63,873 nt of DNA from a virus. The notes beneath the pieces were generated by a model that was given only the letters and a program-made list of their open reading frames with translations, was not told the origin of the DNA and searched no databases. The position numbers and the translations under genes were made by a program. Shown here in pieces: positions 6,001 to 63,151 of this stretch (positions within the stretch are counted from its first letter, which is position 1; each line of letters starts with the position of its first letter). The DNA lies in IMG/VR virus record IMGVR_UViG_3300013006_000032, positions 1 through 63,873 of that record; one strand, written 5' to 3'.

Positions 6001-6194
6001 ACTTCATACCAATTATTAAGGTATGATTGATAGCGAAGTAAAAAGTCGTTAGCGTTAGTATAAAGCGAATTATTATACTGTAACCAAGCTTGAAATGTTA
6101 AAGGCTCGTTACTATCGATAGGGTTATCTGGCTTTATTAACGAAGTAATTGATGCTGAAAGCCGTTCATCTATAAATCTGCTTGAATCTAACAT
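3054..6194 (-). CDS. Large virion structural protein, probably baseplate-associated
   Basis: A protein of 1046 aa with no domain I can name. The N-terminal third is helical and charged. The rest is rich in Asn, Tyr, Ser and Leu with short beta-like stretches and no signal peptide or membrane segment, a composition typical of phage tail and baseplate proteins. The start is fixed by an ATG preceded by TAAATA with exactly 5 nt between, and there is no Shine-Dalgarno. It follows the PKD/propeller protein by 8 nt and ends 4 nt before the adhesin start, all downstream of gp25 and gp6. By position it corresponds to the T4 gp7-gp12 wedge and fibre region. A specific T4 equivalent cannot be assigned. 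Confidence 0.6.
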   Translation of the reverse strand: MLDSSRFIDERLSASITSLIKPDNPIDSNEPLTFQAWLQYNNSLYTNANDFLLRYQSYLNNWYEVKNTVKTSRIDITKSLYTTLINEIVLSFTSSDEKRFLKNIDFNNNRDLAIAVPFFAQKIKEICLYYSTLRDDIKTGSLRYNLKGSNLGVEKLIYNEISKSLETEDLTDLTRSLAITLSSIRDNMVIDVEDLYDTYTSYLDVSPTMPASAYSATNKRKDYFSLNQYDIDPNLFLDFNYSIVDAITSYPFFLTELGTNNFNITPQVDATQLQYLKDADFINTINTQQLDNLNLNLTQTGIKKYIGTDFYYISTNSTSTNYISGILFSAENEFANYLNKRYPAVAAIADTTFIKTAKEIGLFFKPDKIGLSNFHNFGLNFEVNPDALSANTLYIFPDPNKFGNISGLTEEEFLNPLSFTELSYFNKIDFSNQFRFGDSETNSYYQTFRSYQSREQTLDTSLQGIAKYTDPQEFFKGDLKSIWANKDIYPVVPQNEFPLDNRIEKLVSLGKTVVQYKNDIYGNEFSLYKDVHPIKIASNNKVNNTNAKLIYCLTVDGYVFFDPISGYNFNYKEVDEEKNYSGIILKTTTNIPPGTGFYLPGPNIFTPTPLSASFYDNGAPMFALTGTVLPLVSYRYQLETFCPSKIDVVFLCSVMDGVTFVSPSSGLLPDYPSDEPTFNPQNANVYYMELIDGGSTPLEPNFIPNFVNPAEFLFIPPLSAITDVNGSIFVYNSASPCGDALDFVVSYTEPSNYLNYHIPLRNTKVIEGISGLDIKRTMYQTKYLDYGALYYRNSNSTIILPGSAALSGLLIKYNTEINNEIVNNLINFDIYYDTIQFETENYIVFDKIKFDYETNTIINTTKNDLFFKRGDNKDLEKLSTVWFNETENILFLCRTVLYPQLSATNNKIVYPEIYSLNLGTLEFNRLFPVIEQPLLTFDELKQFSLSGTGLNINIIEIEKPLFAYDSDTGTYSITYLGKDLSNTFYIIKTFFKYVNGVITNITNTLFKLMPETDTLNFAGALSSSYTTYTVVGSGPGSIIDGAFTFE

Positions 6195-6199
6195 TTAAA

Positions 6200-6205
6200 T
6201 ATTTA
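6200..6205 (-). promoter_or_regulatory. TAAATA late-type box, 5 nt before ATG (6194)
   Basis: ATTAAATA on the minus strand, overlapping the preceding stop codon region. Serves the 1046-aa structural gene. Confidence 0.6.
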
Positions 6206-9200
6206 ATTGTTATATACTATGTCGCTACCACTTAAAAACAGTCTAAGTCCTTTAGTAAGCTCATAGCTTAATAGATTTTGCATTATACCGCTGTCTTTAC
6301 TCCATTCATTAAAAGAACTACTAGTAAACTGTAGAGTAGTTTGTGGGTTGTCCCAGTCTATAATATTATTATAATACGAACCTTCAAATACCGGTATATA
6401 ATTAAAAAACCTATAATAATCAGATATCATTATACCGGAAACGCCTCGAGGCGCGATTAACCCCCAACCCCAGTCGTAATTATACCCCGATAGGCTTATT
6501 GGATCGTTTAATTCATAGCCATTAATTGCAACATTGTTTATTAGTGTATAATTTCCGGAGAATATTTCGTAAGCTATAACAGGCTCTCCGCAGAAAATAA
6601 TACTTGAAAGAATTGATAGCTGGGTACCTAAATTGTTAGGAGCGCTGTTGTATATACCAGATCCTGGTTTATAAAAATTTTGCTGAAATTTATTTCTCTC
6701 TCCCCAAAGGTTTTTATGTTTAATTGATAGTATGTCAACTAATCGTCTTAATTGTGGTGGAAAGGGGTAATTATATTGCTCAAATTGAATCGATAACTCT
6801 CTGCAAAAAGAAATAACTTGATTAAGATTAGCTTTATCTACATCTGTTGTATTAGAAACATAATTAGCTATTTTTTCATAGATCGTTCTTCCCAATTCGT
6901 AAGGCTGTGCAGAAGCGCCTCCAACTATAGTACCGAGAAAATCGTTAAAAAAGATATTTTTATCTTCTAAGCTTTCAGTGAAGATAAGCGATTTATAAAA
7001 AGCAGCAGCATCAAAATCTTCGTTAATTTTGTATAAGTTATACTGACCGTTGGTTGGAAGTATGTTAAACATATTTGACTGCCCTGTAATAGTTCTAAAA
7101 GCAGTTGTCTGTATCATATACTTGTTAATCCATCTACTTCCTAGCCAATCACCATATGCTTGAAATGACTGCTCTTCAAAAGCAGAGACAGGATTCTGCT
7201 CACTATTAGGAGGGAATGTTAAGTCGACATTAGGATATTCATTCACCCCCGATACTGGTTCTGCTAGTGAATCAACAAAATACATTTTACCGGTGGTGTT
7301 ATTAATTACCCAAATATATGATGCGGTATCAGAAGCGATACCACCTATGCTATTGTAATAGTTTGTAATATTGCCTGATCCTGCAATATAATTTGTACGA
7401 TTGCCGTCACCTGCATCTACTCTCGTAAGAGTGTCTCTGTCCTGCACTACCCAAGCATTTTGATATCCATCAACAGTAATATCACCTATAAAATTGAACC
7501 CTGTTAAAGGATACCCTGATGTGAGTTTACCAAGAGAAGAGAATTTAAACAAATAATCATTTTTACCGGTAAGACCTGTAATATTATTGTTGTTATAATT
7601 ATATGCGGTAACCCAAACATTTTTATTTCGATCAATACATATAGCTGCGGGTGTTATAAGGCTAGGAAACGGAATAACAGTTAAGAGAGTACCGTATGTA
7701 TCATATTTTACAATAAAATTAGATACAGGGTGGGTATATGATACCCAGATATTATCATCTCTATCTGTATCAATACAAGAAGGTAGAAATAAATTTTCAC
7801 CAGCAAACCCACTTAGCGACTTAATATTATAATCTCCGCTCAAATAATAAACAAAATTTGTACCAGTAGGGTAAGCTACAGACTTTATATATCCGCCTGA
7901 TGCATCAACTTTAATACATGAAACAGAATCAAATAAGGCTATCCAAATATCGCTTTTGCTATCCATAGCAATACTTCCTGGCGCGGCGCTTGAGAGCACC
8001 GGTGAAAGTAGATTAGTATATGCTAATTCACCGGGCGCAGATAGATATGGAAAATTAGAAAAATTAAATGAGGATAATGTATTACCACTAGCATCAAATT
8101 TAAATAATTTATCACTTGTACCGTCTGCAAACCAGGTGCAGAAATCTAACCCCGGACCATTACCCGATGGTGCAACTTGAATAGCGTATACGTTTCTATC
8201 ATTATTAGAATTAAAATAATCTCCTCTAGCAGAAATAGTAGTTGTTAAATACCCCGGGCACATACTATATATCTGTTGTCTAAAGAATCTTAATAGCATG
8301 TTAAATTGTGGGACTGCTACCCAGCCAATAAGAGAATCTTTTGGAAAATTAAGCGGATCCTGGATACTTACACTTGCAGTTAGTATGCAATTATTAGTAG
8401 CATACGGAACGGTAAAGTATCCCTTATAAAATGCGCCTATAGACTGAGGAATATCTGGTAAAAAGTCTTCGTAAAATTTTATATCCTCTAGAGGAATATA
8501 CCTACCGGTGAGAGTATCTTGTATTAGGCCAAAAGTTACATTAAAAGCGGTTAATGTAGATAGATTTGAATATATAGTAGAAGAAGATAGGGGTGGATAT
8601 GTTTTTGTAGTAAAATTATCAATATCTTTCATTCTAATAACAAAAGGTATTTCGGTATTTTCCCAGCTTATCTCAGGTATATCGAATTTAGTACTCGAAA
8701 GGGTACCTTCTCCTACAATACCGGTTGTAGAAATAGATAGTTTCTCTGCAGGGTTATGTCTAACTTTAATTATCGGTAATACTGCAGGTTTAATATTTTG
8801 AAACCCGTAAGGTGGATACGATATATACTCAAAACTATTATTAGCTATTGAATAGCTATCATTAAATTTAGAATTATCGAGCGTAGCAAAAACAAAAATC
8901 GGGGGTTCGCGAGTAGTATAATTTTTAGTAGTATCGTCGACATAATAAAAGCTACATGTTCCAGTAGTGCCTGCAAAGACACTGCCTTGATCATTTTTAC
9001 CACAAATACTAAGTTCGCCATTATTAACACGTGCATATACTTCAACGGTAGATGTTTGTATTTTATCAATTAATGTATATTCTTGATAATTTCCCAACTG
9101 CGATTGCTTATAGAATCTACTTAGTGCACGCAGATGTGACCATTTGTCATTGAAGAAGCTGGCTTGATCTTGATATTCACCTAATGCGCCTGAAGCGTAT

Positions 9201-11523: not shown

Positions 11524-11524
11524 A

Positions 11525-12013
11525 TTAGTTTATAAAGTTGAATCCAGTATTACTTAATATTCCAACTAGCTGAAAACTACTTGAAACATCGATAGTAAGT
11601 ATTGAGACGTTAAGAGTTATCACGTATTGTTGGTTTACTTCATCAGCTGTGACATTTATATTTTGTACACGAACTCTAGGTTCAAATGTTGTAATACCTT
11701 TTAGAACATCGTTTCCTATGTTATACGCTGTCGTCTCGCTAACAGGGAGAAAAAGGTACTTCTGTAAGCCTAAGCCAAATAAAGGTGTTAATATGCGCTG
11801 GCCAGGAATAGTAGTAAATAGGTTAAATATAGAGTTTCTTACTGCAGCGTAATCATAATCGATTTGAAGATCTTTAATCTCTTTTCTTCTTAAGAACTCA
11901 TTGTTCTTTGTATAATCTATCTTTAAATCGAGTAATAAATCAGTATAAGTAAATTTACTTGTAGATTGTTCAGGCTTTGCAATCGATTGAATTTTAATAG
12001 TCGCCACATACAT
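11525..12013 (-). CDS. 25: Baseplate wedge subunit gp25 (lysozyme-like fold family)
   Basis: A protein of 162 aa from the ATG. It contains the gp25/W-like signature: AVRNSIFNLFTTIPGQRILTP followed by FGLGLQKYLFLP, then EPRVRVQNINV. This protein connects wedge and sheath in contractile tails and has homologues in type VI secretion. The start is ambiguous. The ATG at 12013 overlaps the TAAATA box itself, whereas a GTG two codons in (12007) lies exactly 5 nt from the box, the spacing seen at most other boxed genes here. A 160-aa product starting MATIKIQS is therefore plausible. It is the first gene of the wedge operon that continues into gp6. Confidence 0.9.
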   Translation of the reverse strand: MYVATIKIQSIAKPEQSTSKFTYTDLLLDLKIDYTKNNEFLRRKEIKDLQIDYDYAAVRNSIFNLFTTIPGQRILTPLFGLGLQKYLFLPVSETTAYNIGNDVLKGITTFEPRVRVQNINVTADEVNQQYVITLNVSILTIDVSSSFQLVGILSNTGFNFIN

Positions 12014-12018
12014 ATTTA
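12013..12018 (-). promoter_or_regulatory. TAAATA box at gp25 start
   Basis: CATAAATA overlaps the ATG at 12013 and is 5 nt from the in-frame GTG at 12007. Confidence 0.5.
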
Positions 12019-12065
12019 TGTAAACTTTATTCTTTTAAAAACAGTTTTATTCACATAAAAAACAA

Positions 12066-12071
12066 TAAATA
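12066..12071 (+). promoter_or_regulatory. TAAATA late-type box, 6 nt before ATG (12078)
   Basis: AATAAATA with no Shine-Dalgarno between box and start. Confidence 0.6.
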
Positions 12072-12077
12072 ATTTAA

Positions 12078-14120: not shown

Positions 14121-14126
14121 TAAATA
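14121..14126 (+). promoter_or_regulatory. TAAATA late-type box, 5 nt before ATG (14132)
   Basis: AATAAATA, then TTATT, then the ATG. Confidence 0.65.
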
Positions 14127-14596: not shown

Positions 14597-16725
14597 TTAT
14601 CCGTAGAATTTTCACACTCAAAGAATGTTTGATAGAAGTTTTTCCAAAGCTGCTTAAAGTCGGGTATAAGCCCTTGGAAGAATTTAGCAATATCACCGTC
14701 AGTAGGTCGCTTGGGTAATATAGCTAGTAATTTCTTTTGCAGTTGCTCGAAACTAAAGTCTATATCATTGTCAAGTATACTTAAGAAGTCGACTTTACCT
14801 ATGATAGGCAATCTAAAATTACAAATAATATTTTTTAACTGTTGAATACTGTCAAATATTGATGATGCGTTAACATTCTTAAAATCAGTGCCAGCTAGGA
14901 GAGCATATATTTCAGGGAACGAGCCGGGGTCTACAGAAGGTAGCGCGTTAGGTAGATTATTAATAGGAGAGAGTAGTATATTTTGTATAGAACTTATAGA
15001 CCCTGCTAACCCCTGAAGGGGTGATGTAACCCCACTAATTAAAGGCGCAGAAATTTCTTGTAATCCCGGTACATCGCTAATACCAGTCTGTTGTATTAAA
15101 TTATCTAATTTAGCTAATGCTATGTTAGGCGCTGCAACAGCTCCAAGTGCAGAATTAATTTTTGTATTTGCTGCTTCAGTAAGAGATATCGGTGTACGTG
15201 TAACGTTGTATTGTCTGATTTGATTTAAAAATCTCTCATTAAGTTGGTCTGTAGTAACGCCATTTGATTGTTCATCGCTTCCACAGTCTTTAACACCTAA
15301 AAATCCTTGTATTGTTCTCGTACTACTTGATTCTCTGTATTTTTTCTGTAAAAGATCTACTAATTGTATTTGACCCTCAACGTTTATTTCATAATAAATA
15401 TCTTCAATACGCTGGAGATTAGAATTTTCAGTATCTCTAGGGTTATAGCCCGGTGTTTGATTTAAATTAGTAAAATAACTACTATATTCAGCAGTTTCAG
15501 GCACATAATCAACAACTTCAGTAGTATAAGTCGTTTGTGAAAATACGTTATGAGTGTAATATGGTATATCTGTTATTAGATTAGCAGAATGAGGTACTGT
15601 AGGATCAGCTATTAAATTATCTTGCTGATCATCTGATACTTTTTGAAGATTATATGTATTAGCTTTGAATAGGCTTGTTGTTTCATTACTAAACGAAAGA
15701 TTAAATATGTTAGTATCGGGAGAGAGCTTCATTTCTAAGATAGGTGGAACGGGATCCGGTGCACCATAGTTGTTAGGTATGTCGAAAACAGGAGAGACTG
15801 AATCTGTATAAGCTGTATTTGTCAAAGTTCCAAAGCTATCAGAAGGAAAAGCAAACATATTATCAAAATTAAAGAGATCGTTTTCACCATCCGGTGTAAG
15901 AAATAATTCAATTTGAGATTTTATTTCTGTTGGTGAACTATAATATTGTTTGAACCAGAAAAACGTTTCATCATTATTTAAATCTTTTAAACTAGTATTT
16001 AAACTGCTATAAAATTTAGTTTGCTCTGTGATGGGATTAGGCGATGTCTTAGTTTTATTATATTGGATAGCTGTTTCTACGGTCTTATTTAAACTACCCG
16101 GCACAGGTTGATTAGGTAGCGTGGGCTTTGGAAACGCACTGCTAGTTGGTAAATATTCTGTCGGTACTCTTTCAGGCCTAATTTCCCAATGAGGTCTATC
16201 GTTAGCTAGTCCGCTAAAATTAAACCTATTCGCATTGCTTTTTAACCACTGTAATGTTCTTGGGTCACTATTTACATCTAGATCAATCGCAAATCCAAGA
16301 CCGTGATTACTCAGTCCTGGAGCTGCTGCAGGGAGACCACCACTTTGACCGCGTTTAAACTTATCATATAATGCCTGTTGCTTCTCCCAATCACGGTAAC
16401 CTGAAATTATTTTCAAAGAAATACCATCAGCTGCAGCTGCAGCTTGCATTTGCTGAAATTGATTTGCAACATACGGATTGAGATAATATCCACCTTCAAC
16501 TTGCACTAGCTGCAATCTATCTCCTTTATTGAGCCTGGCATTTAATGCAGCTAGACCCTTTCTCCCGCTGTTACTAGCACCTAAATCACCACCACTTTGT
16601 GTATTACCACCAATTGCTTCAATAAATCTAGTGTTACGCGAAACAAGCGCCATATTTTTTGATGGTGCAACCTGTGCTAAATTAGGATAACTTGTTCTTG
16701 TATTTGTTTTTGTTTTAGCTGCCAT
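14593..16725 (-). CDS. Baseplate hub protein with D,D-carboxypeptidase (VanY-like) domain
   Basis: A protein of 710 aa. Residues about 65-185 form a VanY/peptidase M15 domain: SGYRDWEKQ (108-116), SNHGLGFAIDLD (139-150, giving the zinc ligands His141 and Asp148) and HWE (179-181, the third ligand and catalytic Glu nearby). It would cut peptide cross-links in peptidoglycan during tail penetration. The long C-terminal part has no named domain but lies in a hub operon, so this is probably the functional counterpart of T4 gp5, with a peptidase in place of a lysozyme. The start ATG overlaps the stop of the next hub gene (TAATG). The enzyme class is well supported; the hub role is inferred from context. 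Confidence 0.8.
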   Translation of the reverse strand: MAAKTKTNTRTSYPNLAQVAPSKNMALVSRNTRFIEAIGGNTQSGGDLGASNSGRKGLAALNARLNKGDRLQLVQVEGGYYLNPYVANQFQQMQAAAAADGISLKIISGYRDWEKQQALYDKFKRGQSGGLPAAAPGLSNHGLGFAIDLDVNSDPRTLQWLKSNANRFNFSGLANDRPHWEIRPERVPTEYLPTSSAFPKPTLPNQPVPGSLNKTVETAIQYNKTKTSPNPITEQTKFYSSLNTSLKDLNNDETFFWFKQYYSSPTEIKSQIELFLTPDGENDLFNFDNMFAFPSDSFGTLTNTAYTDSVSPVFDIPNNYGAPDPVPPILEMKLSPDTNIFNLSFSNETTSLFKANTYNLQKVSDDQQDNLIADPTVPHSANLITDIPYYTHNVFSQTTYTTEVVDYVPETAEYSSYFTNLNQTPGYNPRDTENSNLQRIEDIYYEINVEGQIQLVDLLQKKYRESSSTRTIQGFLGVKDCGSDEQSNGVTTDQLNERFLNQIRQYNVTRTPISLTEAANTKINSALGAVAAPNIALAKLDNLIQQTGISDVPGLQEISAPLISGVTSPLQGLAGSISSIQNILLSPINNLPNALPSVDPGSFPEIYALLAGTDFKNVNASSIFDSIQQLKNIICNFRLPIIGKVDFLSILDNDIDFSFEQLQKKLLAILPKRPTDGDIAKFFQGLIPDFKQLWKNFYQTFFECENSTDN

Positions 16726-18692: not shown

Positions 18693-18700
18693 TATTTATA
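18693..18700 (-). promoter_or_regulatory. 53: Full TATAAATA late promoter box, 5 nt before ATG (18687)
   Basis: An exact T4 late consensus octamer upstream of the gp53-like gene. The best single instance in the window. Confidence 0.75.
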
Positions 18701-21987: not shown

Positions 21988-21993
21988 TATTTA
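21988..21993 (-). promoter_or_regulatory. TAAATA box, 6 nt before tape measure ATG
   Basis: GTTAAATA then six A/T bases then the ATG at 21981. Confidence 0.6.
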
Positions 21994-22761: not shown

Positions 22762-23601
22762 CTATTTATTTACAGCTAACGGGTTTTCAAGCCCTTTGGT
22801 TTGCTCTTCTTTTAAGCTCTTTATCTCTGTCTCATATATATTAACTAAAACTAAATTTTCGGCCAACGTATTTTTGTCGATATATTCAGGACTGTAAAAT
22901 ATTTTACTTACTAAAACATATTGAAGCTCGATAATGCTTTTTAAATTAGCAGTAAAAAGCGCTTTTAAAATCTCCAAAAGCGAAAGGTTATAGGGAGATA
23001 ATGAAATTTTAGTATCTTGTTGTATGCCAATATCTAAAATTAAAGATCTAAATTCTTCAGTCATTTTATCGCTAAATTTCTTTAGGTGGGTCATTACTTC
23101 TGCGGGCAGCATTTCTAATAAATCGTTTCTGTTTGGTGGATATACAATTTCTTTCTTATTAAAAAAGACTTTTGAAATGGAATCATGAAGAACGTCAAAA
23201 ATCGTTTCAAAATTTAATACTTTTGGTAATGTCAATTGTATATCCAGATTATCTATAGTAATTGTTTCAGTAAAGTCTGTCTTAAAATCAATACACTTTT
23301 GTAAAAAGGGTAATATAGATGCTTTATTGTTGGTTATACCGCTTTTAAACTCAATATCAGGAGAAATGCATATACAACGCAATAAGAGAAGTGCGCAAAA
23401 TTTATCGAAACTTGTAAAACTATTAAAATCTTCACTATCAACAAGACATTCTTTAAGAATCCCATCAAAATAATCTGCAATATGCTGATTGTTGTTGTTA
23501 ATTAAAAATTTATTAATGGTCTTGTAATGTGCGAAAGATAATTCTCTTATCTTGACATTTCTTTTTTGTGTAGGTATGTAAAAATTTATGTAAAATGACA
23601 T
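22762..23601 (-). CDS. Tail/baseplate assembly protein, gp26/gp51-like (paralogue 1)
   Basis: A protein of 279 aa. The N-terminal beta segment with the Arg/Lys-x-Val-Lys-hydrophobic pattern, followed by a helical body with ADYFDGILKECLVD, parallels the downstream gene (LLNSILKENCQEKVEFL). The two are probably duplicated copies of a gp26/gp51-family assembly factor. The start ATG overlaps the stop of the tube-fold gene upstream (TAATG). The C-terminus is Lys/Glu rich. No frameshift signal is visible between the pair, unlike the gpG/gpGT chaperones of lambda-type tails. Confidence 0.55.
   Translation of the reverse strand: MSFYINFYIPTQKRNVKIRELSFAHYKTINKFLINNNNQHIADYFDGILKECLVDSEDFNSFTSFDKFCALLLLRCICISPDIEFKSGITNNKASILPFLQKCIDFKTDFTETITIDNLDIQLTLPKVLNFETIFDVLHDSISKVFFNKKEIVYPPNRNDLLEMLPAEVMTHLKKFSDKMTEEFRSLILDIGIQQDTKISLSPYNLSLLEILKALFTANLKSIIELQYVLVSKIFYSPEYIDKNTLAENLVLVNIYETEIKSLKEEQTKGLENPLAVNK
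22763..22768 (-). promoter_or_regulatory. TAAATA box, 5 nt before ATG (22757)
   Basis: AATAAATA lies inside the final codons of the upstream paralogue. Confidence 0.6.
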
Positions 23602-24514: not shown

Positions 24515-24520
24515 TATTTA
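24515..24520 (-). promoter_or_regulatory. TAAATA box, 5 nt before GTG (24509)
   Basis: ATTAAATA then ATTAA then a GTG start codon. Confidence 0.6.
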
Positions 24521-25088: not shown

Positions 25089-25094
25089 TATTTA
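25089..25094 (-). promoter_or_regulatory. 19: TAAATA box, 5 nt before tail tube ATG
   Basis: GATAAATA in the 15-nt gap between sheath and tube genes. Confidence 0.68.
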
Positions 25095-27420: not shown

Positions 27421-27426
27421 TATTTA
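27421..27426 (-). promoter_or_regulatory. 18: TAAATA box, 6 nt before sheath ATG
   Basis: CATAAATA then CTTTAT then the ATG at 27414. Confidence 0.68.
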
Positions 27427-28061: not shown

Positions 28062-28067
28062 TATTTA
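28062..28067 (-). promoter_or_regulatory. TAAATA box, 6 nt before ATG (28055)
   Basis: GATAAATA then six A/T bases then the ATG, in the 13-nt gap after the terminase gene. Confidence 0.6.
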
Positions 28068-28068: not shown

Positions 28069-29787
28069 CTATAATCTTTTCCACCCCTGTGATTCTAAAT
28101 CACTGATTTCATTAAAATCTTGAGAATTATCACCCTGAATAACAATTGGTAGAGATGGAAAGTTTGGCGAATTACCGTTTTTTTCGTTATTGTAAATAGA
28201 AGCGGGATTTACAAAATATCTGATACCGTAGTCTAATGCTTTGACTTTAAGTGGTTTTCTATTGCTATCATATTCTGCTATTTCAAAATATTTTTCAACT
28301 AAATCGTTTTCTAAAATCATTAACCCCCACATCAGGCTCATCACTCTATCATCCCAGTTATCAGCTCCAGGTTTTGCAGCCCAAGTACCGTTAGGGTAGC
28401 GTACGAAATTTTTTAATTCGTTTAACGTTTTAAAATCTCTTATGCGTAAAACTTTTAACTCGCTCATCCAATAGCGCATATTCATTACTCCTTTATATTT
28501 TGTGTTGGTATGTGCTTGTACTCCTATTTTATTAAAGTTTACAGGCCCAGCTTTTATTCCATATGAAACTATATTCTCGTAGTTCAAGGTATTTTTTAAT
28601 TGATCTACAACTTGTGCACCGCAATTATTTCTTTCTATCATTGCCAGGGGTGATCCCCAGTGTTTTAATATTTCATAAAGCTTGGTTGTAAAGTTATATG
28701 GACTTATAGTGCGATCATGATAACACGCAACTTGCTTTATTTCTCTCAAGTCAGTAATATCAAGTACCTGGATAACACTTGCAGCTTCTCCTACTCCCTC
28801 GCTTACGTCAACCCCTGCAACGTAAATTTTATCTTGTGAGGGCTCGTCCCACATTAAATATTTTCCTTCATCAAACACAAAACTCGGTTCACTACATTCT
28901 GCTTTCATAGCTTCGAAGAGGTGCTCATCGAGTGCGCTTTCTCCGGTCTGTAAAAATACATTTCCGAACTCTTGATCAAAAACTTCTCTACTACCCAAAG
29001 TACGAATAGTCTTTTCTTTCCAAGCTTCATCGCGACCAGGAAATTCCCACCAATCAACCTTTTCTGCTTTCCAATCATTCTTATCTTCAATAGCACCAGT
29101 GTAGAGATCGTGGAAGAGATTACCTGTACCGTTTGGCGTTGACGCTACAAATATCTTAGACTTTTTAGAAGATGAAATAATTGGATATACAGAGCTCCAG
29201 AACTGCTCTACAAGGTGATTGTCAATAAATGCTAGCTCGTCTAAGATAAGAACATTACAGCTATCACCTCTACCTGCATCGCTACTAGTTGTCGAAATAC
29301 CTATACTAGATCCGTTACCCAGGGACATTGATGTTTTACCATATTCTACGGTTCCTGGTTTAAGATAGTTTGGTAGTTTTTCGTAAGCTAAGCGAACTCT
29401 CTTAAAAATATTAATAGCGGTTTGTTCTTTATTAGCGACAATAAGAATACGTTGGTCCTCAAAAAAACAAGCAATCCATAGCGCATATATTGTCATGAGA
29501 GTTGTCTTTCCCACCTGTCTCGATGCTAATAGGCATACAAATCTGCTATCTCTTAGACTTCTCAATATACGCTTTTGATAACTGTGAAGCTTAATCTTCA
29601 TCTTACCTTCATCAAGATTTGTAATAAAGAAAAAGTTTTCTGCAAAATAGAGTATATTTTTTCTTGACTTTGCAATATCGTCTACCCATTCGGGGTGTGA
29701 AGCATAGTCAAAAGCTGTATCTGCTGTAGGTAGGTTTTGATTACCTAAATAAAATTTAGTTTCTGGTTTTTTAGGCATATATGACAT
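28069..29787 (-). CDS. 17: Large terminase subunit gp17 (packaging ATPase/nuclease)
   Basis: A protein of 572 aa (T4 gp17 is 610). Walker A is SRQVGKTT (89-96). Walker B is NVLILDELAF with the DE pair at 183-184, and a coupling motif IFVASTPNGTGN follows. The C-terminal RNase-H-fold nuclease starts YVAGVDVSEG and continues to MIERNNCG and DNWDDRVMSLMW, giving the acidic triad. It pumps DNA into the prohead and cuts concatemers. The ATG lies only 11 nt from a divergent plus-strand start, and a second in-frame ATG (codon 4) is an alternative start. No TAAATA box is seen on this strand. Confidence 0.95.
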   Translation of the reverse strand: MSYMPKKPETKFYLGNQNLPTADTAFDYASHPEWVDDIAKSRKNILYFAENFFFITNLDEGKMKIKLHSYQKRILRSLRDSRFVCLLASRQVGKTTLMTIYALWIACFFEDQRILIVANKEQTAINIFKRVRLAYEKLPNYLKPGTVEYGKTSMSLGNGSSIGISTTSSDAGRGDSCNVLILDELAFIDNHLVEQFWSSVYPIISSSKKSKIFVASTPNGTGNLFHDLYTGAIEDKNDWKAEKVDWWEFPGRDEAWKEKTIRTLGSREVFDQEFGNVFLQTGESALDEHLFEAMKAECSEPSFVFDEGKYLMWDEPSQDKIYVAGVDVSEGVGEAASVIQVLDITDLREIKQVACYHDRTISPYNFTTKLYEILKHWGSPLAMIERNNCGAQVVDQLKNTLNYENIVSYGIKAGPVNFNKIGVQAHTNTKYKGVMNMRYWMSELKVLRIRDFKTLNELKNFVRYPNGTWAAKPGADNWDDRVMSLMWGLMILENDLVEKYFEIAEYDSNRKPLKVKALDYGIRYFVNPASIYNNEKNGNSPNFPSLPIVIQGDNSQDFNEISDLESQGWKRL

Positions 29788-29792
29788 AAATA
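29787..29792 (+). promoter_or_regulatory. TAAATA box, 6 nt before ATG (29799)
   Basis: CATAAATA overlaps the first base of the divergent terminase start codon. Confidence 0.6.
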
Positions 29793-29798: not shown

Positions 29799-30686
29799 AT
29801 GAACCGTACAAGAGAGCTAGTTGAAATGGGTGACTTCTATGAGAAGTCAGTTATTGAAGAAAAGAAGTCTGTTTTCCCGCCAAAAGGGACATTTAAGCTC
29901 GCTACAGATAAAAAGCCCGTAGAAGTCGAGGCGGATAAGAATGCTTTTACAAATAAAAAGTCAGGACCTGAAAATGCTGACGGTTTTAAAAAGGATATTG
30001 TTGATCCTAAAACAACAAAAAAAGAAAATTTTTATGACCCTAAAAAATTCTCACAAAACCTTGAAAAAACAGAGGTACGAACAATAAATACTTTTATGAA
30101 CAAATCTATTTTTGATAAACTATATGAGGATGTAATGTCCGATCAGCAAGAAGACGCTGGTATTAATGATGCCGAAGCCCTTGGTCTTCCTTCCGGCGAT
30201 ACCGAAGAAGGTGCTGGCGGCGAAGAAGTAACATTGACACTACCACGTGATGTTGCTCAAAAGCTTTGTGATATGCTTCACGGAGTTCTCGATGCAGGTG
30301 CAGAAGAGACTTCTGGTGAAGGTGAAGTTAACGATGAAGAAGGCACCGGTGAAGAAGGTGTTTCTGATGAAGCTAACGAAGAAAAAGATGAAGAAGAAAA
30401 AGATGAAGTTGCTAAAGAAGCTACTGAACTTAAGGAAGTTCCTGCTTCAGCCGGACAGAGCCTTCAGAAGAAGGATAATAAGGTCGGCGATGTAACAAAG
30501 AGTTTAGTCTCAAGCGGTGCTGGCGATGCTAAAGTTACCGATAAGGTCGGTAATGACGGTGAAAAAGGTCATGCCTTAGTTGGTGCTGGTGTTAAGGGCG
30601 GTGCTCCCACATCACCAAAGGGCAAGGCTAACGTTGTAGCTAGCAAGACATCAAAAGTTGGTTCTTACTTAGCTGGTTTAAAATAA
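29799..30686 (+). CDS. Acidic protein with nested internal start; possible internal head/scaffold-type protein
   Basis: The full frame is 295 aa from an ATG with TAAATA 6 nt upstream. A second ATG at 30096 has AATAAATA exactly 5 nt upstream and begins MNKSIFDKLYEDVMSD, itself a capsid-targeting-like N-terminus. Two in-frame products (295 and 196 aa) are therefore likely. The middle is extremely acidic (Glu/Asp/Gly runs around residues 165-220), and the C-terminus is Gly/Lys/Val rich and probably disordered. No family is recognised. The composition suits a head-core or packaged internal protein. A strong terminator follows. Confidence 0.65.
   Translation: MNRTRELVEMGDFYEKSVIEEKKSVFPPKGTFKLATDKKPVEVEADKNAFTNKKSGPENADGFKKDIVDPKTTKKENFYDPKKFSQNLEKTEVRTINTFMNKSIFDKLYEDVMSDQQEDAGINDAEALGLPSGDTEEGAGGEEVTLTLPRDVAQKLCDMLHGVLDAGAEETSGEGEVNDEEGTGEEGVSDEANEEKDEEEKDEVAKEATELKEVPASAGQSLQKKDNKVGDVTKSLVSSGAGDAKVTDKVGNDGEKGHALVGAGVKGGAPTSPKGKANVVASKTSKVGSYLAGLK
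30085..30090 (+). promoter_or_regulatory. Internal TAAATA box, 5 nt before nested ATG (30096)
   Basis: AATAAATA lies inside the 295-aa frame and precedes an in-frame ATG that begins a targeting-like peptide. Confidence 0.6.
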
Positions 30687-30749: not shown

Positions 30750-30755
30750 TAAATA
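30750..30755 (+). promoter_or_regulatory. TAAATA box, 5 nt before GTG (30761)
   Basis: CTTAAATA directly after the terminator T-run. Serves the small basic gene and the gp14-like gene. Confidence 0.65.
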
Positions 30756-33197: not shown

Positions 33198-33217
33198 CTA
33201 TATATTATACTATTAGA

Positions 33218-33600: not shown

Positions 33601-33606
33601 TATTTA
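33601..33606 (-). promoter_or_regulatory. TAAATA box, 5 nt before GTG (33595)
   Basis: AATAAATA, one half of a back-to-back pair with the plus-strand box at 33619. Confidence 0.65.
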
Positions 33607-33618: not shown

Positions 33619-33624
33619 TAAATA
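33619..33624 (+). promoter_or_regulatory. TAAATA box, 5 nt before ATG (33630)
   Basis: AATAAATA, the plus-strand half of the divergent pair. Confidence 0.65.
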
Positions 33625-35291: not shown

Positions 35292-35297
35292 TATTTA
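35292..35297 (-). promoter_or_regulatory. TAAATA box, 5 nt before ATG (35286)
   Basis: CTTAAATA between two small genes in the replication region. Confidence 0.55.
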
Positions 35298-36442: not shown

Positions 36443-36769
36443 TTACTCTCCAGGATTATTATCCTTTTGAGAATTAAAAAGAAATTTATTAATAAGAGCC
36501 CCCAAGGAGTCAGCTTCTTGCTGATTGTGCGCAGATATTAAATTAACTGGCTCGCCGTCAAAATTATAACCAATTAAAATAAAGCTATTTAAAAATTCTA
36601 ATATTGTACTCGTTAACGCATCGAGATCTCTTTTGTTGGCTACACGATCCTTCATTTGATCGCGAAGAAATGAAATAAGAGCGCGATGGGTAAGTTCTTT
36701 GACTTCTTTATTCTCGTTAGGGTCAAAGCTTTTATTATTATTCTTTGATGATCGTTTGTCTTTCATCAT
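36443..36769 (-). CDS. Small charged protein of unknown function
   Basis: A protein of 108 aa from the first of two consecutive ATGs. TAAATA is 3 nt from the first and 6 nt from the second (36766), so the second may be the true start. The N-terminal 25 residues are Lys/Asn rich. A helical core (ALISFLRDQMKDRV, DALTSTILEFLNSFILIGYN) follows. Its 5' end overlaps the preceding gene by 32 nt. No family recognised. Confidence 0.5.
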   Translation of the reverse strand: MMKDKRSSKNNNKSFDPNENKEVKELTHRALISFLRDQMKDRVANKRDLDALTSTILEFLNSFILIGYNFDGEPVNLISAHNQQEADSLGALINKFLFNSQKDNNPGE

Positions 36770-37118
36770 AATTATTTAATCTTTTTGTCATATATCTATC
36801 GCGACCATGATAATCAGCGCTGTTTGATACACCATGTCTAATGAGATATTCAATAATTACTTCAATACTATCTGTCTTAATAAACATATTCTTAGGTATA
36901 CGACGGCCACCATCGTGTAGTTCGAATACCACTTCATTGAGTGTATCTTTATTACGATAGCATGTAATAAGTACAGAAGTTTCACTAGGATTAACCATTA
37001 TCGACCACTGTCTAGGATCTGATTTTGCATAAACAGCAAAAATCTTTATAACTATAAACCCATTATCACGGAGCCGTTTAATAAAGTAACTTGGGGTTCT
37101 AAGCTTATTCTTGCTCAT
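36738..37118 (-). CDS. Unknown protein downstream of sliding clamp
   Basis: A protein of 126 aa. It has mixed alpha/beta character with YFIKRLRDNGFIVIKIFAVY, DPRQWSIMVNPSETSVLITC and a helix IEVIIEYLIRHGV, followed by a basic C-terminus. The ATG overlaps the gp45 stop (TAATG), so translation is coupled to the clamp. T4 places gp44, gp62 and regA after gene 45. Size (122 aa in T4 RegA) and position invite a RegA comparison, but I see no diagnostic match and do not assign it. Confidence 0.5.
   Translation of the reverse strand: MSKNKLRTPSYFIKRLRDNGFIVIKIFAVYAKSDPRQWSIMVNPSETSVLITCYRNKDTLNEVVFELHDGGRRIPKNMFIKTDSIEVIIEYLIRHGVSNSADYHGRDRYMTKRLNNYDERQTIIKE
36773..36778 (-). promoter_or_regulatory. 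TAAATA box, 3 or 6 nt before ATG (36769/36766)
   Basis: ATTAAATA inside the preceding gene. The spacing favours the second of two adjacent ATGs. Confidence 0.45.
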
Positions 37119-39188: not shown

Positions 39189-39845
39189 TCAAGCACGATT
39201 TGAAATTTTTTTAAAGCCAAGCTCGACTAATTTCATAGCTTTACTAGAATTATATAATTTTGTTCTAAACATTGAAATATTATTATAGATCTCTTCACCT
39301 ATAATAAATCTAACGACTTCAGCATCACGAGACTTAATCCGCTTTTCAAAATCAGAATAACCAAATAGAGTATACAGGCAAATATTATGTTCTCTAAGAT
39401 GTAATATAAAAGAATATTCATTATTAGTTTTATGATCTATATATTGCGGTACTAATATATTGTTTTGTTTACAAAAATTATATATAAAAACCAAGGATGT
39501 TTTAATATTATTAAGTTGTTCTGTGCTATCCGGATCTTGCAAAGTTTGCTTCTTATTATAAAGGGTATATGCTTTAGTCGCTTTAAGAGTAAAATAATAG
39601 TCTAACGGAAAATGTTTTTCATCAGGATAAAGAGCATAAGGCGCTTTAAAATACTCTTCCATTTTTATATGTGGAAATTTTCTTAAAAAAGAAGAGACTT
39701 TCTTAATCGCTACAAAAGTTTTTTCGTCTAATTTTTCGAAATCTTTTCTATATTTAAAGGGTAAATTATTACTCCCGCGAGATACCTTTAAATATGTATT
39801 GTATATGCGCTTATCGTGCTCTGTAATCAACTGTAAAACTTCCAC
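39189..39845 (-). CDS. Unknown helical protein next to SSB and helicase genes
   Basis: A protein of 218 aa, helical and basic, with several aromatic residues (KMEEYFKAPYALYPDE, FPLDYYFTLKATKAYTLY). The start is a GTG inside the end of the bS21 gene (19-nt overlap). By size and position between gp32 and gp41 it could be the helicase loader gp59 (217 aa in T4), but I cannot match conserved gp59 residues, so it stays unnamed. Confidence 0.5.
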   Translation of the reverse strand: MEVLQLITEHDKRIYNTYLKVSRGSNNLPFKYRKDFEKLDEKTFVAIKKVSSFLRKFPHIKMEEYFKAPYALYPDEKHFPLDYYFTLKATKAYTLYNKKQTLQDPDSTEQLNNIKTSLVFIYNFCKQNNILVPQYIDHKTNNEYSFILHLREHNICLYTLFGYSDFEKRIKSRDAEVVRFIIGEEIYNNISMFRTKLYNSSKAMKLVELGFKKISNRA

Positions 39846-40039
39846 TTATTTCTCATCACTTGCTTCTTAATCTTACGAAGCGCACTTGGCTTGTAATAAC
39901 ATCTACGTATACGTAATTCCTCTAAAACACCAGATTTAAGAAATTCTCTATTAAACTTATTGTAAGCCTTATCAAAGTATGCTTTATCTGTACATCTCTT
40001 TTTATCTAAAGTAACTGATGCTTTTATTACTCTACTCAT
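39827..40039 (-). CDS. rpsU: Phage-encoded ribosomal protein bS21
   Basis: A protein of 70 aa. FDKAYNKFNREFLKSGVLEE and LRIRRCYYKPSALRKIKKQ reproduce the bS21 signature (the R-x-F-K-R-x-x-E-K-A-G type helix, then the Arg-Arg-x-x-x-Tyr-x-Lys-Pro motif and a basic tail). bS21 sits on the 30S platform near the anti-Shine-Dalgarno and is needed for initiation on many mRNAs. bS21 genes are known in some aquatic phages. A phage copy could replace the host protein and shift which mRNAs are chosen. The ATG overlaps the preceding stop (ATGA). Confidence 0.9.
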   Translation of the reverse strand: MSRVIKASVTLDKKRCTDKAYFDKAYNKFNREFLKSGVLEELRIRRCYYKPSALRKIKKQVMRNKWKFYS

Positions 40040-43113: not shown

Positions 43114-43119
43114 TAAATA
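43114..43119 (+). promoter_or_regulatory. TAAATA box, 7 nt before ATG (43127)
   Basis: ATTAAATA in the divergent gap with the ATT-start amidotransferase. Confidence 0.55.
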
Positions 43120-44059: not shown

Positions 44060-45049
44060 GTGAAGATTAAGGTTATTGGGTGTGGTATATCGGGTATTAC
44101 TGCTGCGGTATTGCTAGAAGAAAGAGGTCATGATGTTGAAATTTTTGAATCTCGAAATCATATAGGTGGCAATTGCCATGACACTAATTTAGCAGGTACT
44201 TTAGTACATAGTTACGGACCACATTCATTTCATACAGATGACGATGAAGTGTTTAACTTTTTAAGTCGCTACACGGAATGGTTTCCTTTTGAACTTAGAC
44301 CTAAAGGCAATACAGAGCTTGGATTAATCTCGCTACCATACAGCAAAACAACAATTAAAGAGCTTGGAAGAGAGCTTACACAAGAAGAAATTTTAAAATA
44401 TATCTTCAAGGGCTATTCTGAAAAGCAATGGGGTATGCCGTTAGAAAAAATTTCTAATAGTATTTTAAGTAGAATACCAAAAGTAGCAGATAAAGAGAAT
44501 CCCACATGGTTTGAAGGTCAGAAATATCAATGCGTACCTTTAAGGGGTTACACTAAGATGTTTGAGAATATGCTGCGCGATATAAAGGTGCATCTTAATA
44601 CAACTAATAAAGATTGGAAAGAGTATAATACAGATCTGACAATATACACAGGTAAAATTGATGAATATTTTGACTTTTGTTATGGTCGACTACCATACCG
44701 ATCATTAAAGTTTGAACATACTTTGAGCTATGAAAAGATGAATACATTTATTATTAATCAAAATCGAGCTGACATCCCTTATACGCGTGTTTATGATCAT
44801 AGTTATTATACTAAAGACCATAAGGGTCCGACAATTATAACAAAAGAATATTCAATCGACCACACAGAAAATAATATTCCTTTCTACCCAATTCCGTTTG
44901 GCGAGGGTGTAGAGATTTATAAGAAATATAGTGAACTTGCGGGAAAAGAAGAAAATGTTATATTTTTAGGTCGCCTGGCTACTTATAAATATTTAGATAT
45001 GTGGATGGCGGTTAAACAAGCGATACAAAAAGTTTCATATCTCAACTAA
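44060..45049 (+). CDS. glf: UDP-galactopyranose mutase-like flavoenzyme
   Basis: A protein of 329 aa, somewhat shorter than usual (about 370-390). It begins KIKVIGCGISGITAAVLLEERGHDVEIFE, the FAD Rossmann motif, then HIGGNCHDTN and YGPHSFHTDDDEVF, which are UGM hallmarks. Further on are GYSEKQWGMPLEKI, the ring-contraction site region, and the RADIPYTRVYDHSYY segment. UGM turns UDP-Galp into UDP-Galf for surface glycans. The GTG start lacks a box or Shine-Dalgarno. It ends convergently on queC with a 4-nt overlap. Confidence 0.85.
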   Translation: MKIKVIGCGISGITAAVLLEERGHDVEIFESRNHIGGNCHDTNLAGTLVHSYGPHSFHTDDDEVFNFLSRYTEWFPFELRPKGNTELGLISLPYSKTTIKELGRELTQEEILKYIFKGYSEKQWGMPLEKISNSILSRIPKVADKENPTWFEGQKYQCVPLRGYTKMFENMLRDIKVHLNTTNKDWKEYNTDLTIYTGKIDEYFDFCYGRLPYRSLKFEHTLSYEKMNTFIINQNRADIPYTRVYDHSYYTKDHKGPTIITKEYSIDHTENNIPFYPIPFGEGVEIYKKYSELAGKEENVIFLGRLATYKYLDMWMAVKQAIQKVSYLN

Positions 45050-46870: not shown

Positions 46871-46912
46871 AGATCTATTATATATGAAGTATATTTAAAT
46901 ACAAGTAAAAAA

Positions 46913-49883: not shown

Positions 49884-49926
49884 AAGACAATTATAGTACA
49901 GCTGCTTGTCAAATCAAGTAAAATAA

Positions 49927-53524: not shown

Positions 53525-54594
53525 GTATTATTAGCCCTCTTATATAGATCTAAGCAATAGCGAGACACATCGCTCTTCTTCTCTATATCAAGTAATGTTA
53601 CGAATTCTTCAATAGCTTTACTCATATCTACACCAGATAAATCATACGCTTGATCTTCATTTACTGTAATTGAATCATTATAGAGAGTGTAGTCAACAGA
53701 TAAATTAAACGGTTTGTGGGTAGATATTTTTTGAATGAGAAGTTCAATATTATCGCTTGTAATTTTCTTGTCTACAATAAGCTTGATAATATTGTTATTG
53801 ACTGTATCTTTTACTTCTGTTGCACTAAGTGATTTAAATGTCATTAAATCAGTTAGTGTTACTTTCTTATGTTTAGGTGAAAGCTTGTTCTCATAAAACG
53901 TATAATTTAAATTATTAAAATCTAAAATATAATATCCTTTGGTTGAGCCGGTATCACCAAAATCCATTTCGAACGGATTACCAACGTATATAATTGTCTG
54001 TTTATCATATTTACGTTCGTCGCGTAAATGAAAATGACCGGTCATTATTAAATCGGCCTTAGCTAAAAGATCTGAAGTTTTCATACCATGATCACAATGC
54101 TTATGGCTATTCATTTTAAAGCTTTCGATCTCTAGATGTCCAAACAATACATCTGACTTTTTAATAGACCTCACATCTGCTCCCCAAGGTAAAAAGGATA
54201 CCTCTTTACCAAGCACTGTATATGTTACAGCTTCACTGATTACCAAGATATTCTTCCAGCCGTCTAGAATAGAGAGTGAATTAATATCGGATCTATCTTT
54301 ATAAAAAGCGTCATGATTACCGACAATAATCACAATATTAAAGTCAGCCCATAGTTTAAGGATCTGATTTACAACATGAATAGTGTTTACAGCAATTTCA
54401 TCTCTATAATGATAGAGATCACCAAGAATAAATATATCTTTTATTCCTTTAGCGAGAAGTTCTTTTTTTAGCCACGCTGCCCAGCTTAGCGCAGTTTCGT
54501 GCCAAAAGATACTATTTTGATGTACACCAATATGTAAGTCTGCAATGCAGCAGACTTTATCGGTACGTATATTTAATTCCTTCGTCGTACTCAC
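53521..54594 (-). CDS. 47: Recombination nuclease subunit gp47 (SbcD/Mre11-like)
   Basis: A protein of 357 aa (T4 gp47 is 339). Phosphoesterase motifs are CIADLHIG (Asp19, His21), ILGDLYHYRD (Gly58, Asp59), VGNHD (91-95) and GHFH (186-189), all the metal ligands. It starts at GTG, overlapping the gp55 stop (GTGA). It pairs with gp46. Confidence 0.93.
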   Translation of the reverse strand: MSTTKELNIRTDKVCCIADLHIGVHQNSIFWHETALSWAAWLKKELLAKGIKDIFILGDLYHYRDEIAVNTIHVVNQILKLWADFNIVIIVGNHDAFYKDRSDINSLSILDGWKNILVISEAVTYTVLGKEVSFLPWGADVRSIKKSDVLFGHLEIESFKMNSHKHCDHGMKTSDLLAKADLIMTGHFHLRDERKYDKQTIIYVGNPFEMDFGDTGSTKGYYILDFNNLNYTFYENKLSPKHKKVTLTDLMTFKSLSATEVKDTVNNNIIKLIVDKKITSDNIELLIQKISTHKPFNLSVDYTLYNDSITVNEDQAYDLSGVDMSKAIEEFVTLLDIEKKSDVSRYCLDLYKRANNT

Positions 54595-55181
54595 TCAGAT
54601 GTGTTATAATTATCGTCATTAGGCTCGACATATATATGTGCGCCGCCTGTTTCTTTTGTATCAAGCATAAGCTCGGTAAATACCTTTTCTCGGTATTCAT
54701 TAAGTACAGCGTGATGTTTATTTTCTTTTTTAATTCGATTGATAAAAGCATGAAACGCAATTGTAGTAAAATATGAGAAAGGACTAAATCCTGTATCGAG
54801 TTTAAATTTTTGATTACGAAGAGCGGAGAACATTTTAACTACAGCATCACCTATCATGTCATCCTTGTAAGAGTAGTTAATAAAGTTAGGAGCGTACGAA
54901 AGACCATGGGCAATCTTTGTCAAACTTTCTCCTAGCTTTTGCGTTACGTGACCAGATTTATAATAAGCGCGAATCTCTTCTTCAAATTCTTTACTATTAA
55001 CATAGTGAACTTTATCCTTAGCTTTTACTTTCTTTTTGACTTCAGGTGTCGTGGATGGAACAGCTAACACACCTGTAGCCAATATTTTTGTTAAAGTAGG
55101 ATCGTTAGTAACATCCTCTGAAAAAACCTCTTTATGGTTCTTTGATTTCTTTGATTGAGTGCTGTATTTTTTCTTTTTCAT
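54591..55181 (-). CDS. 55: Late-transcription sigma factor gp55
   Basis: A protein of 196 aa (T4 gp55 is 185). A sigma-region-2-like segment lies at about 98-160: NFINYSYKDDMIGDAVVKMFSAL, then KLDTGFSPFSYFTTIAFHAFINR. In T4 it directs host RNA polymerase to TATAAATA late promoters. Its presence explains the TAAATA boxes in this window. The C-terminus (NDDNYNTSE) is polar and lacks the short hydrophobic clamp-binding tail I would expect from T4. It overlaps the uvsW end by 50 nt. Confidence 0.85.
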   Translation of the reverse strand: MKKKKYSTQSKKSKNHKEVFSEDVTNDPTLTKILATGVLAVPSTTPEVKKKVKAKDKVHYVNSKEFEEEIRAYYKSGHVTQKLGESLTKIAHGLSYAPNFINYSYKDDMIGDAVVKMFSALRNQKFKLDTGFSPFSYFTTIAFHAFINRIKKENKHHAVLNEYREKVFTELMLDTKETGGAHIYVEPNDDNYNTSE

Positions 55182-57007: not shown

Positions 57008-57280
57008 ATGAAATCAATAAATTTATTCGAAAAGGCATTTAACAATCTCCTTGAGGAAGATAATGTTGCGGGGGGAGTAGGTAGTGCCTTTGGACCGGGT
57101 ACAGATGGGCCCATTGGATCTTTTGGTAATCAATTTCCTTCGCAAAATGATAAAGCTTATGCACCGGGTGATGCACGGTTGCCTAAGATTCTGGGCGCTA
57201 AAAGAAAGAAGCGTAAAAAGGAAAAATTTATAGTGCAAAGAAGACCACTTCCTGGATTAGAATTAAATTCTGCTAAATAA
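57008..57280 (+). CDS. Small unknown protein with capsid-targeting-like N-terminus
   Basis: A protein of 90 aa. MKSINLFEKAFNNLLEED is an amphipathic helix with L-L-E-E, followed by a Gly/Pro-rich linker (GSAFGPGTDGPIGSFGNQ) and a basic C-terminus (KRKKRKKEK). The basic tail suggests DNA binding, as in some T4 internal proteins. A TAAATA lies 15 nt before the ATG, further than the usual gap. The stop overlaps the next box. Confidence 0.6.
   Translation: MKSINLFEKAFNNLLEEDNVAGGVGSAFGPGTDGPIGSFGNQFPSQNDKAYAPGDARLPKILGAKRKKRKKEKFIVQRRPLPGLELNSAK
57274..57279 (+). promoter_or_regulatory. TAAATA box, 7 nt before ATG (57287)
   Basis: GCTAAATA overlapping the stop codon of the preceding small gene. 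Confidence 0.45.
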
Positions 57281-57286
57281 CTGCAT

Positions 57287-57706: not shown

Positions 57707-57726
57707 TCTTTCATTCATAATAAAGC

Positions 57727-58287: not shown

Positions 58288-58292
58288 TACAA

Positions 58293-58298
58293 TAAATA
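58293..58298 (+). promoter_or_regulatory. TAAATA box, 5 nt before ATG (58304)
   Basis: AATAAATA heading the four-gene run to 61854. Confidence 0.65.
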
Positions 58299-58303
58299 AT
58301 AAT

Positions 58304-58750: not shown

Positions 58751-58751
58751 T

Positions 58752-62408: not shown

Positions 62409-62413
62409 ATAAT

Positions 62414-62419
62414 TATTTA
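62414..62419 (-). promoter_or_regulatory. TAAATA box, 5 nt before ATG (62408)
   Basis: ATTAAATA in the 80-nt divergent gap. Confidence 0.6.
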
Positions 62420-62477
62420 ATCAAATTCTTTAAAATTATTCATTGATTTAGATAAATGAAAACCGCTCAATAATCAA

Positions 62478-62483
62478 TAAATA
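62478..62483 (+). promoter_or_regulatory. TAAATA box, 5 nt before ATG (62489)
   Basis: AATAAATA then TATAG then the ATG of the retropepsin-like gene. Confidence 0.65.
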
Positions 62484-62488
62484 TATAG

Positions 62489-63151
62489 ATGGAACCCTTT
62501 AAGGATTTTTATAATAAACCTGTCCTTGGTGTTAATGAATATATTGACATTAACGGCATTGGCCGATTAAAGGCAAAGATTGACAGTGGTAACGAAGCTT
62601 ATAACGTGCTGCACGGTGTTGATGTTGAAGAAAATGGTGAAGAAATAACATTTACTACAGTAGGCAATAAGAGAATAAAGGCACCAAGAAGCGGTGAAAT
62701 AAAGATACATATAGGTAGTGGTGTAAAGGAAGACAGACCAATAGTAATGTTGGATATAAAGATAGATGGTAAAGAATACAAAGGTGTACCTTTTAGTATA
62801 GCCGATAGAACAGAAAATGAAGATCCTATTCTTGTCGGTGAACCTTTTTTGAAGAAGTTAAATGCAGTTATAGATGTAAATAAGAAATCTGTTAACGAAT
62901 CTACGAAATATAATGTTGTGATGCTTAATAAAAAAGATAAATTGGCTAGAGATTGGAAAAAAGCTCGTTATAGTGAAAATGCCTTACGTGCAGTTGCAAA
63001 TAGACAAAAAACTTTAATTGTTTCAAAGACTGGAAATCCAAAATTTAGAGGTAAAAGTATTCTTAAAATAATTAACCCAATTACTAAGAAAGCGTTTATC
63101 ATCTTCAAGAAGAAGACAAAGACCTCAGAAACCGATACAATAGAAAATTAA
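62489..63151 (+). CDS. Retropepsin-like aspartic protease (RimB/Zn-protease family type)
   Basis: A protein of 220 aa. RLKAKIDSGNEAYNVLHG contains the D-S-G active-site triad (Asp32), and VPFSIADRTENEDPILVGEPFLKKL matches the second half of the PF05618-type family, once named ATP-dependent zinc proteases and now seen as retropepsin-like. The C-terminal 85 residues are basic. The N-terminus MEPFKDFYNK resembles the targeting motif. TAAATA is exactly 5 nt before the ATG. It might process virion proteins; a prohead protease of the T4 gp21 type is not in this window. Confidence 0.75.
   Translation: MEPFKDFYNKPVLGVNEYIDINGIGRLKAKIDSGNEAYNVLHGVDVEENGEEITFTTVGNKRIKAPRSGEIKIHIGSGVKEDRPIVMLDIKIDGKEYKGVPFSIADRTENEDPILVGEPFLKKLNAVIDVNKKSVNESTKYNVVMLNKKDKLARDWKKARYSENALRAVANRQKTLIVSKTGNPKFRGKSILKIINPITKKAFIIFKKKTKTSETDTIEN

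Follow-up and report, generated by a model that had tools for sequence, protein, structure and literature searches.

Probable late and early promoters in a fixed register with the start codon, and predicted leaderless first genes, in an uncultivated T4-like phage clade

The IMG/VR virus record IMGVR_UViG_3300013006_000032, a linear stretch of 63,873 bases (34% G+C; hereafter the window), was analysed over its whole length for the hexamer TAAATA, which stands a few nucleotides (nt) before the start codon of many of its genes. Judged by sequence, the window is from a T4-like myovirus that is far from any isolate. Proteins named by PHROG matches are the large terminase, a neck protein, proteins of the baseplate, tail tube and tail sheath, a family B polymerase, UvsX, UvsY, UvsW, gp46/47, a helicase, a primase, SSB and the late sigma factor gp55; the gp55 gene was confirmed at 54591, on the minus strand. 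The tail sheath was at most 31-39% identical to that of cultured phages, over part of the protein, with P-SSM2, Syn9, HTVC008M and Melnitz among the nearest cultured relatives, and the best terminase match reached ~40% identity. Host searches by tblastn with the sheath, polymerase and terminase returned no isolate above ~40% identity, a scan of genome contigs gave three weak matches only, probably misbinned viral contigs, and the actinobacterial marker WhiB was absent from 13 contigs.

The original prediction had placed TAAATA exactly 5 nt before 14 starts and 6-7 nt before seven others, and all of these sites were found where they had been reported, including the three GTG starts among the exact cases (24509, 30761 and 33595). 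Only position 30096 turned out not to be the start of a separate gene, as it has no open reading frame (ORF) of its own and lies at codon 100 of gene 29799-30686, as an internal start in the same frame. Across the 69 called ORFs, the hexamer lay 5 nt from the start in 13 cases, 6 nt in five and 7 nt in two, never at 4 or 8 nt, and only three times in total at 25-99 nt upstream. A motif scan against a shuffled control gave a box at 5-7 nt before 20 of 68 called starts, compared to 0.71 genes after shuffling (dinucleotide shuffles of the 40-nt upstream regions, 1000 rounds; maximum of five genes). Two more genes gained a box after their starts were shifted 1-2 codons downstream (11525-12013 and 36443-36769), for a total of 22 (Table 1). 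TAAATA-N5-ATG occurred 12 times in the window, ten of these being called gene starts, and none of the four TAAATA-N5-TTG words was a start. One explanation for such a peak is base composition or start miscalling: in a genome of 66% A+T, TAAATA would be frequent in the AT-rich regions before starts, and the starts are those of the longest ORFs. However, TAAATA was under-represented in the window (119 occurrences vs 178 expected), so base composition does not explain the spacing peak, and yet it was 28-fold more frequent than in shuffled upstream regions at 5-7 nt.

The same spacing was found in relatives, defined as 74 IMG/VR loci with a related sheath (885 ORFs), where TAAATA occurred 243 times at 5 nt, 128 times at 6 nt and 12 times at 7 nt, with none at 4 nt and five at 8 nt, over a background of 0.87 per position. 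It was also kept gene by gene in eleven contigs (the window plus ten relatives with lengths of up to 157,857 bases), which were analysed over all or almost all of their length: 6 nt for the sheath and 5 nt for the tube-family gene 23601 in 11/11 contigs each, and 7 nt for gene 43127 in 8/9 contigs, window included. By contrast, no 5-7 nt peak was detected in T4, HTVC008M, P-SSM2, Syn9, C48C1, AG-345-L05, DSL-LC03, phiM12 or Atu_ph04, most of which had clear Shine-Dalgarno signals. The spacing is therefore real and far beyond chance. Composition or miscalled starts are refuted as its cause by the peak in the relatives, by the absence of a peak in T4-like phages of similar composition and by the shuffled upstream regions, and we regard the probability of this explanation as practically nil.

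The box also separated genes by function. Among virion orthologues, 63/119 carried the late box and 0/119 carried TATAAT, while among replication orthologues the late box was found in 0/118 and TATAAT lay 5-8 nt before the start in 30/118 (Fisher 2e-24 for the late box and 1e-10 for TATAAT, on rows that are not independent). No conserved -35 element accompanied the late box (in the 5-nt class, no position from -50 to -14 exceeded 0.13 bits), and C+G was low at -5 to -1, downstream of it. TATAAT also appeared at -12 to -7, without having been selected for, before genes without a late box that were divergent or followed a gap of more than 20 nt. In the polymerase region, TATAAT peaked at 6 nt (39 occurrences vs 1.1), and upstream of 27 of these 39 a TTG stood at a distance of 19 nt (21 cases) or 20 nt (six cases). 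By its layout, the TTG and TATAAT pair forms a sigma70 promoter whose spacer measures 16-17 nt, a geometry that would put +1 on the start codon, so that early genes look leaderless too. An extended -10 element (TGnTATAAT), considered because of a TTTG bump, was dropped as the aligned early promoters lacked TGn. TTG start codons were found at 0/304 promoter-linked genes vs 86/666 others, the second figure being inflated by miscalled starts; the lack of TTG at promoter-linked genes would fit a preference of transcription for a purine at +1. When the spacing was 7 nt, the predicted +1 falls at -2, and A occupied this position in 23/25 genes, which suggests an mRNA with a two-base leader.

The original prediction had raised the alternative that an A-rich start context binds ribosomes and that its likeness to a promoter is superficial. 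In the form considered here, TAAATA would belong to the kind of initiation context seen in Bacteroidetes, where Shine-Dalgarno sites are largely missing, and might be read by ribosomes carrying a phage-encoded bS21. The upstream regions are indeed A/T-rich and poor in Shine-Dalgarno sites. As had been predicted, a Shine-Dalgarno-like 4-mer was present within 20 nt upstream in only 1/22 box genes. The phages also encode a bS21 homologue, and for phages of freshwater Bacteroidetes it has been suggested that their bS21 directs translation in the late phase of infection (PMC9723584). However, the box was confined to virion or late-type genes, with none at replication genes, and preceded 64/91 divergent genes compared to 1/128 overlapping internal genes. 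The replication genes instead had a bipartite -35/-10 signal in register with the start codon, in which the TTG, 32-34 nt upstream, is too distant for a ribosome site. Furthermore, gp55 is present, yet no other late-box peak was seen farther upstream, and the Bacteroidetes promoter TAnnTTTG showed no positional peak. Finally, Shine-Dalgarno 4-mers (counted 4-9 nt before the start) were enriched at overlapping genes (27 vs 10.3 expected), in line with the earlier suggestion that operon-internal genes use overlaps or Shine-Dalgarno sites, so the ribosome seems to use Shine-Dalgarno sites; at promoter-proximal non-late genes they were depleted (0 vs 5.8 expected). Overall, we consider a purely translational box very unlikely.

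A second alternative, compatible and overlapping with a promoter function, is that the box acts as a late promoter for some transcripts and as an unstructured, A-rich ribosome site in read-through RNA. Consistent with this, the late box also preceded 34/75 genes that follow a neighbour on the same strand by 0-10 nt, a position in which read-through transcripts would contain the box as RNA. Against it, the overlapping internal genes mentioned above manage without the box, and no translational role was evident in this analysis; such a dual role is possible, but we rate it as rather unlikely.

The nested box in gene 29799-30686, a gene without a family name in Pfam or PHROGs, precedes the in-frame ATG at 30096 (AATAAATA-N5-ATG). 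TAAATA-N5-ATG was found in frame inside the gene in 55/57 homologues, down to 32% identity; in the remaining two, the ORF is shorter (206 codons) and the box lies 6 nt upstream of its start, apparently at the same site. The Ile codon within the nested box was ATA in 38 of 40 distinct sequences, the other two having Leu CTA and thus keeping TA, compared to 24% ATA among the Ile codons elsewhere in these genes, a bias indicating that the constraint acts on DNA. Two proteins of ~295 and ~197 residues are likely made from this single reading frame, with a separate leaderless mRNA for the shorter protein. A ribosome site would precede an internal start in the same way, and the nested box does not by itself separate a promoter from a ribosome site.

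Taken up again, the promoter explanation draws on gene class, operon position, the register of the early promoters, the loss of TTG starts and the deep conservation of the spacing. These same tests favoured it over the ribosome-binding alternative. The T4 late box spans 8 bp numbered from -13, about one helical turn upstream of the transcription start (PMC2988020). With this numbering, a spacing of 5 nt means that +1 coincides with the start codon's first base. We propose a model in which TAAATA would be the -10 core of a gp55-type late promoter, and transcription would start at the first base of the ATG or GTG when the spacing is 5 nt and no more than two bases from the start codon when it is 6 or 7 nt. 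At early genes, the sigma70 promoter TTG...N16-17...TATAAT would be used, with +1 likewise on the start codon. As a consequence, the leading gene of every transcription unit would be made from a leaderless mRNA whose 5'-terminal start codon is recognised by the ribosome, and genes inside operons would rely on stop-start overlap with moderate help from Shine-Dalgarno sites. It is very probable that the late and early promoters are fixed to the start codon in this way, with the first gene of each unit expressed from a predicted leaderless mRNA; the 5' ends, the recognition of the box by gp55 and the leaderless initiation step are what we infer here. The original prediction had thus read the late genes well and had missed the same architecture at the early genes.

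Several points weigh against this model. The starts are longest-ORF calls, the statistics over relatives are not independent, and the gene classes were assigned from function, not timing. The A/T-rich context could also suit ribosomes that make no strong use of Shine-Dalgarno sites, in which case the box could play both roles, and mRNAs of the 6- and 7-nt classes likely carry a leader of 1-2 nt. Leaderless mRNAs are generally poorly translated in Escherichia coli.

Table 1 Coordinates of the promoter-like boxes and related genes in the window
Feature	Position	Strand	Remark
Late box TAAATA, 5 nt before start 6194 (gene 3054-6194)	6200..6205	-	5 nt in 9/9 orthologues
Late box, 5 nt before codon 3 of ORF 11525-12013 (baseplate wedge)	12013..12018	-	Probably true start; orthologues begin there
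Late box, 6 nt before start 12078	12066..12071	+	
Late box, 5 nt before start 14132	14121..14126	+	
Late box, 5 nt before start 18687 (baseplate wedge)	18693..18698	-	
Late box, 6 nt before start 21981	21988..21993	-	
Late box, 5 nt before start 22757	22763..22768	-	
Late box, 5 nt before GTG start 24509 (tail-tube family)	24515..24520	-	5 nt in 10/10 orthologues
Late box, 5 nt before start 25083 (tail tube, gp19-like)	25089..25094	-	
Late box, 6 nt before start 27414 (tail sheath, gp18-like)	27421..27426	-	6 nt in 10/10 orthologues
Late box, 6 nt before start 28055 (tail-tube family)	28062..28067	-	
Late box, 6 nt before start 29799	29787..29792	+	
Nested late box in gene 29799-30686, before in-frame ATG 30096	30085..30090	+	Conserved in homologues
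Late box, 5 nt before GTG start 30761	30750..30755	+	
Early-type -10 box TATAAT, 6 nt before start 33197	33204..33209	-	TATAAT at 5-8 nt in 7/8 orthologues
Late box, 5 nt before GTG start 33595	33601..33606	-	Divergent pair with box 33619..33624
Late box, 5 nt before start 33630	33619..33624	+	
Late box, 5 nt before start 35286	35292..35297	-	
Late box, 6 nt before codon 2 of ORF 36443-36769	36773..36778	-	
Ribosomal protein bS21 homologue, phage-encoded	39827..40039	-	PF01165, 36.4 bits; in 11/13 contigs
Late box, 7 nt before start 43127	43114..43119	+	Orthologues: 7 nt in 7/8, 8 nt in one
Early-type TATAAT, 6 nt before UvsX gene start 46870	46877..46882	-	
Early-type TATAAT, 6 nt before GTG start of DNA polymerase gene 49883	49890..49895	-	
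TTG of the polymerase promoter's -35 element	49915..49917	-	19 nt from TATAAT
gp55-type late sigma factor gene	54591..55181	-	phrog_234, E 1.4e-26
Late box, 7 nt before start 57287	57274..57279	+	Spacing not conserved: orthologues 4-5 nt or no box
Late box, 5 nt before start 58304	58293..58298	+	
Late box, 5 nt before start 62408	62414..62419	-	
Late box, 5 nt before start 62489	62478..62483	+	

The late box shares with the T4 late promoters, which depend on gp55, gp33 and gp45, a TATA-like -10 box without a conserved -35, an AT-rich downstream region, its use at virion genes and the presence of gp55 (PMC2988020). The TAAATA core of the T4 box assumed in the original prediction was recovered, but the full octamer TATAAATA was depleted (4 copies vs 17.8 expected); the consensus here is (A/C)(A/T)TAAATA, with A or C at -13, A or T at -12 and T at -13 rare. 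The deficits of TATAAATA and of TAAATA, counted on both strands, look as if stray late promoters were avoided. As T4 itself permits A(-13) at nine sites (PMC2988020), we treat the box as a variant of the T4 late consensus and use the T4-type family name with that reservation. The expectation that T4 late genes have leaders also held, as T4 boxes lie 9-46 nt from the start codon with a Shine-Dalgarno site in between, unlike the 5-7 nt found here. A parallel is offered by the TA-led leaderless genes of bacteria such as Actinobacteria and Deinococcus-Thermus, which have a -10 element ~12 nt before the start and no Shine-Dalgarno site. A TA-like box at about this distance is the bacterial criterion for leaderless genes (PMC3160421). 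Both boxes agree with it, as the first T of TATAAT is at -12 for the 6-nt spacing and that of TAAATA at -11 for the 5-nt spacing; the near absence of Shine-Dalgarno words before these genes is likewise shared. The difference is that here a T4-like phage has sigma70-type and late promoters in one register. In marine T4-like cyanophages and pelagimyophages, the T4-like late motif has been searched as TATAAAT (PMC9004378, PMC3037559); their TAAATA lies mainly 12 or more nt from the start, and HTVC008M and AG-345-L05 have strong Shine-Dalgarno signals. The alphaproteobacterial T4-likes phiM12 and Atu_ph04 were rejected as relatives sharing the trait, having Shine-Dalgarno sites and no 5-7 nt boxes (phiM9 and Cr30 are not included in this comparison). 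A bS21 gene in aquatic myoviruses is a feature shared with the bS21-encoding freshwater phages (PMC9723584), but those were assigned Bacteroidetes hosts and no Bacteroidetes promoter signature was found here; promoters or leaderless genes are not mentioned in PMC9723584.

Among more distant IMG/VR relatives, the short spacing persisted down to ~42% sheath identity. Two loci at 40-41% identity, L066 and L138, had almost no short-spaced boxes and were rich in Shine-Dalgarno words (15 and 20 vs 1.1 and 1.9 expected). In a further eight (L198, L200-L203, L208, L210 and L212), TAAATA stood 15-20 nt upstream of the sheath start codon and the Shine-Dalgarno signal was low; this sublineage would have short leaders of another design. 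In a quick sheath tree, with arbitrary thresholds for the labels, L066 and L138 fell inside the clade (98% SH-aLRT) beside the 15-20 nt group, and short-spacing lineages fell outside. Judged by this tree, leaderless late genes seem to be the ancestral state of the clade, with at least one later loss, and the possible reversal in L066 and L138 may reflect a host switch.

Some features related to translation were also recorded. The bS21 homologue is a possible translation partner with a putative role. A tRNA-Met(CAT) that appears initiator-like by eye was found in contigs G001 (L075; 14018-14094, +) and G006 (L110; 71620-71694, +), with a 1:72 position that is not a Watson-Crick pair, A11:T24 and an initiator-like D arm, and an anticodon stem without the usual three G-C pairs. 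Both the bS21 homologue and this tRNA may be part of the leaderless story, as correlates only. L110 also encodes a one-piece transfer-messenger RNA (14706-15112, +), for which ARAGORN gave the tag AEAKLELV; by eye, the frame before its stop would allow an unusually long tag (~33 residues) that ends in ...KLELV rather than Ala-Ala. Apart from these, a UDP-galactopyranose mutase-like gene (44060-45049, +; PF03275, E 2e-53) lies in the window and was found in 1/10 other contigs.

T4 is the reference for phage late transcription. Both T4-type late promoters and leaderless genes are already known, and phage transcripts have been said in passing to be often leaderless (PMC5312081). In the open-licence PubMed Central literature, we found no report of leaderless late genes in T4-like phages, and none of a fixed, clade-wide early and late leaderless architecture in a T4-like phage. 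The clade is large, as 184 IMG/VR stretches matched one distant sheath query. Tentatively, it may have undergone a clade-wide shift to leaderless first genes, both early and late, in which the ribosome would be adapted to 5'-terminal start codons by phage-encoded bS21 and by an initiator-like tRNA that some members carry, and one sublineage would have returned to leaders containing Shine-Dalgarno sites. Promoter and start codon appear fused for both expression classes in this large uncultivated T4-like clade, which, with leadered T4 and cyanophages, leaderless members and a Shine-Dalgarno sublineage, would provide a natural series for a change in the mode of translation initiation. The fixed register would also offer a simple rule to correct gene starts and to sort early from late genes in metagenomic phages, and may narrow the host range to bacteria that translate leaderless mRNA well.

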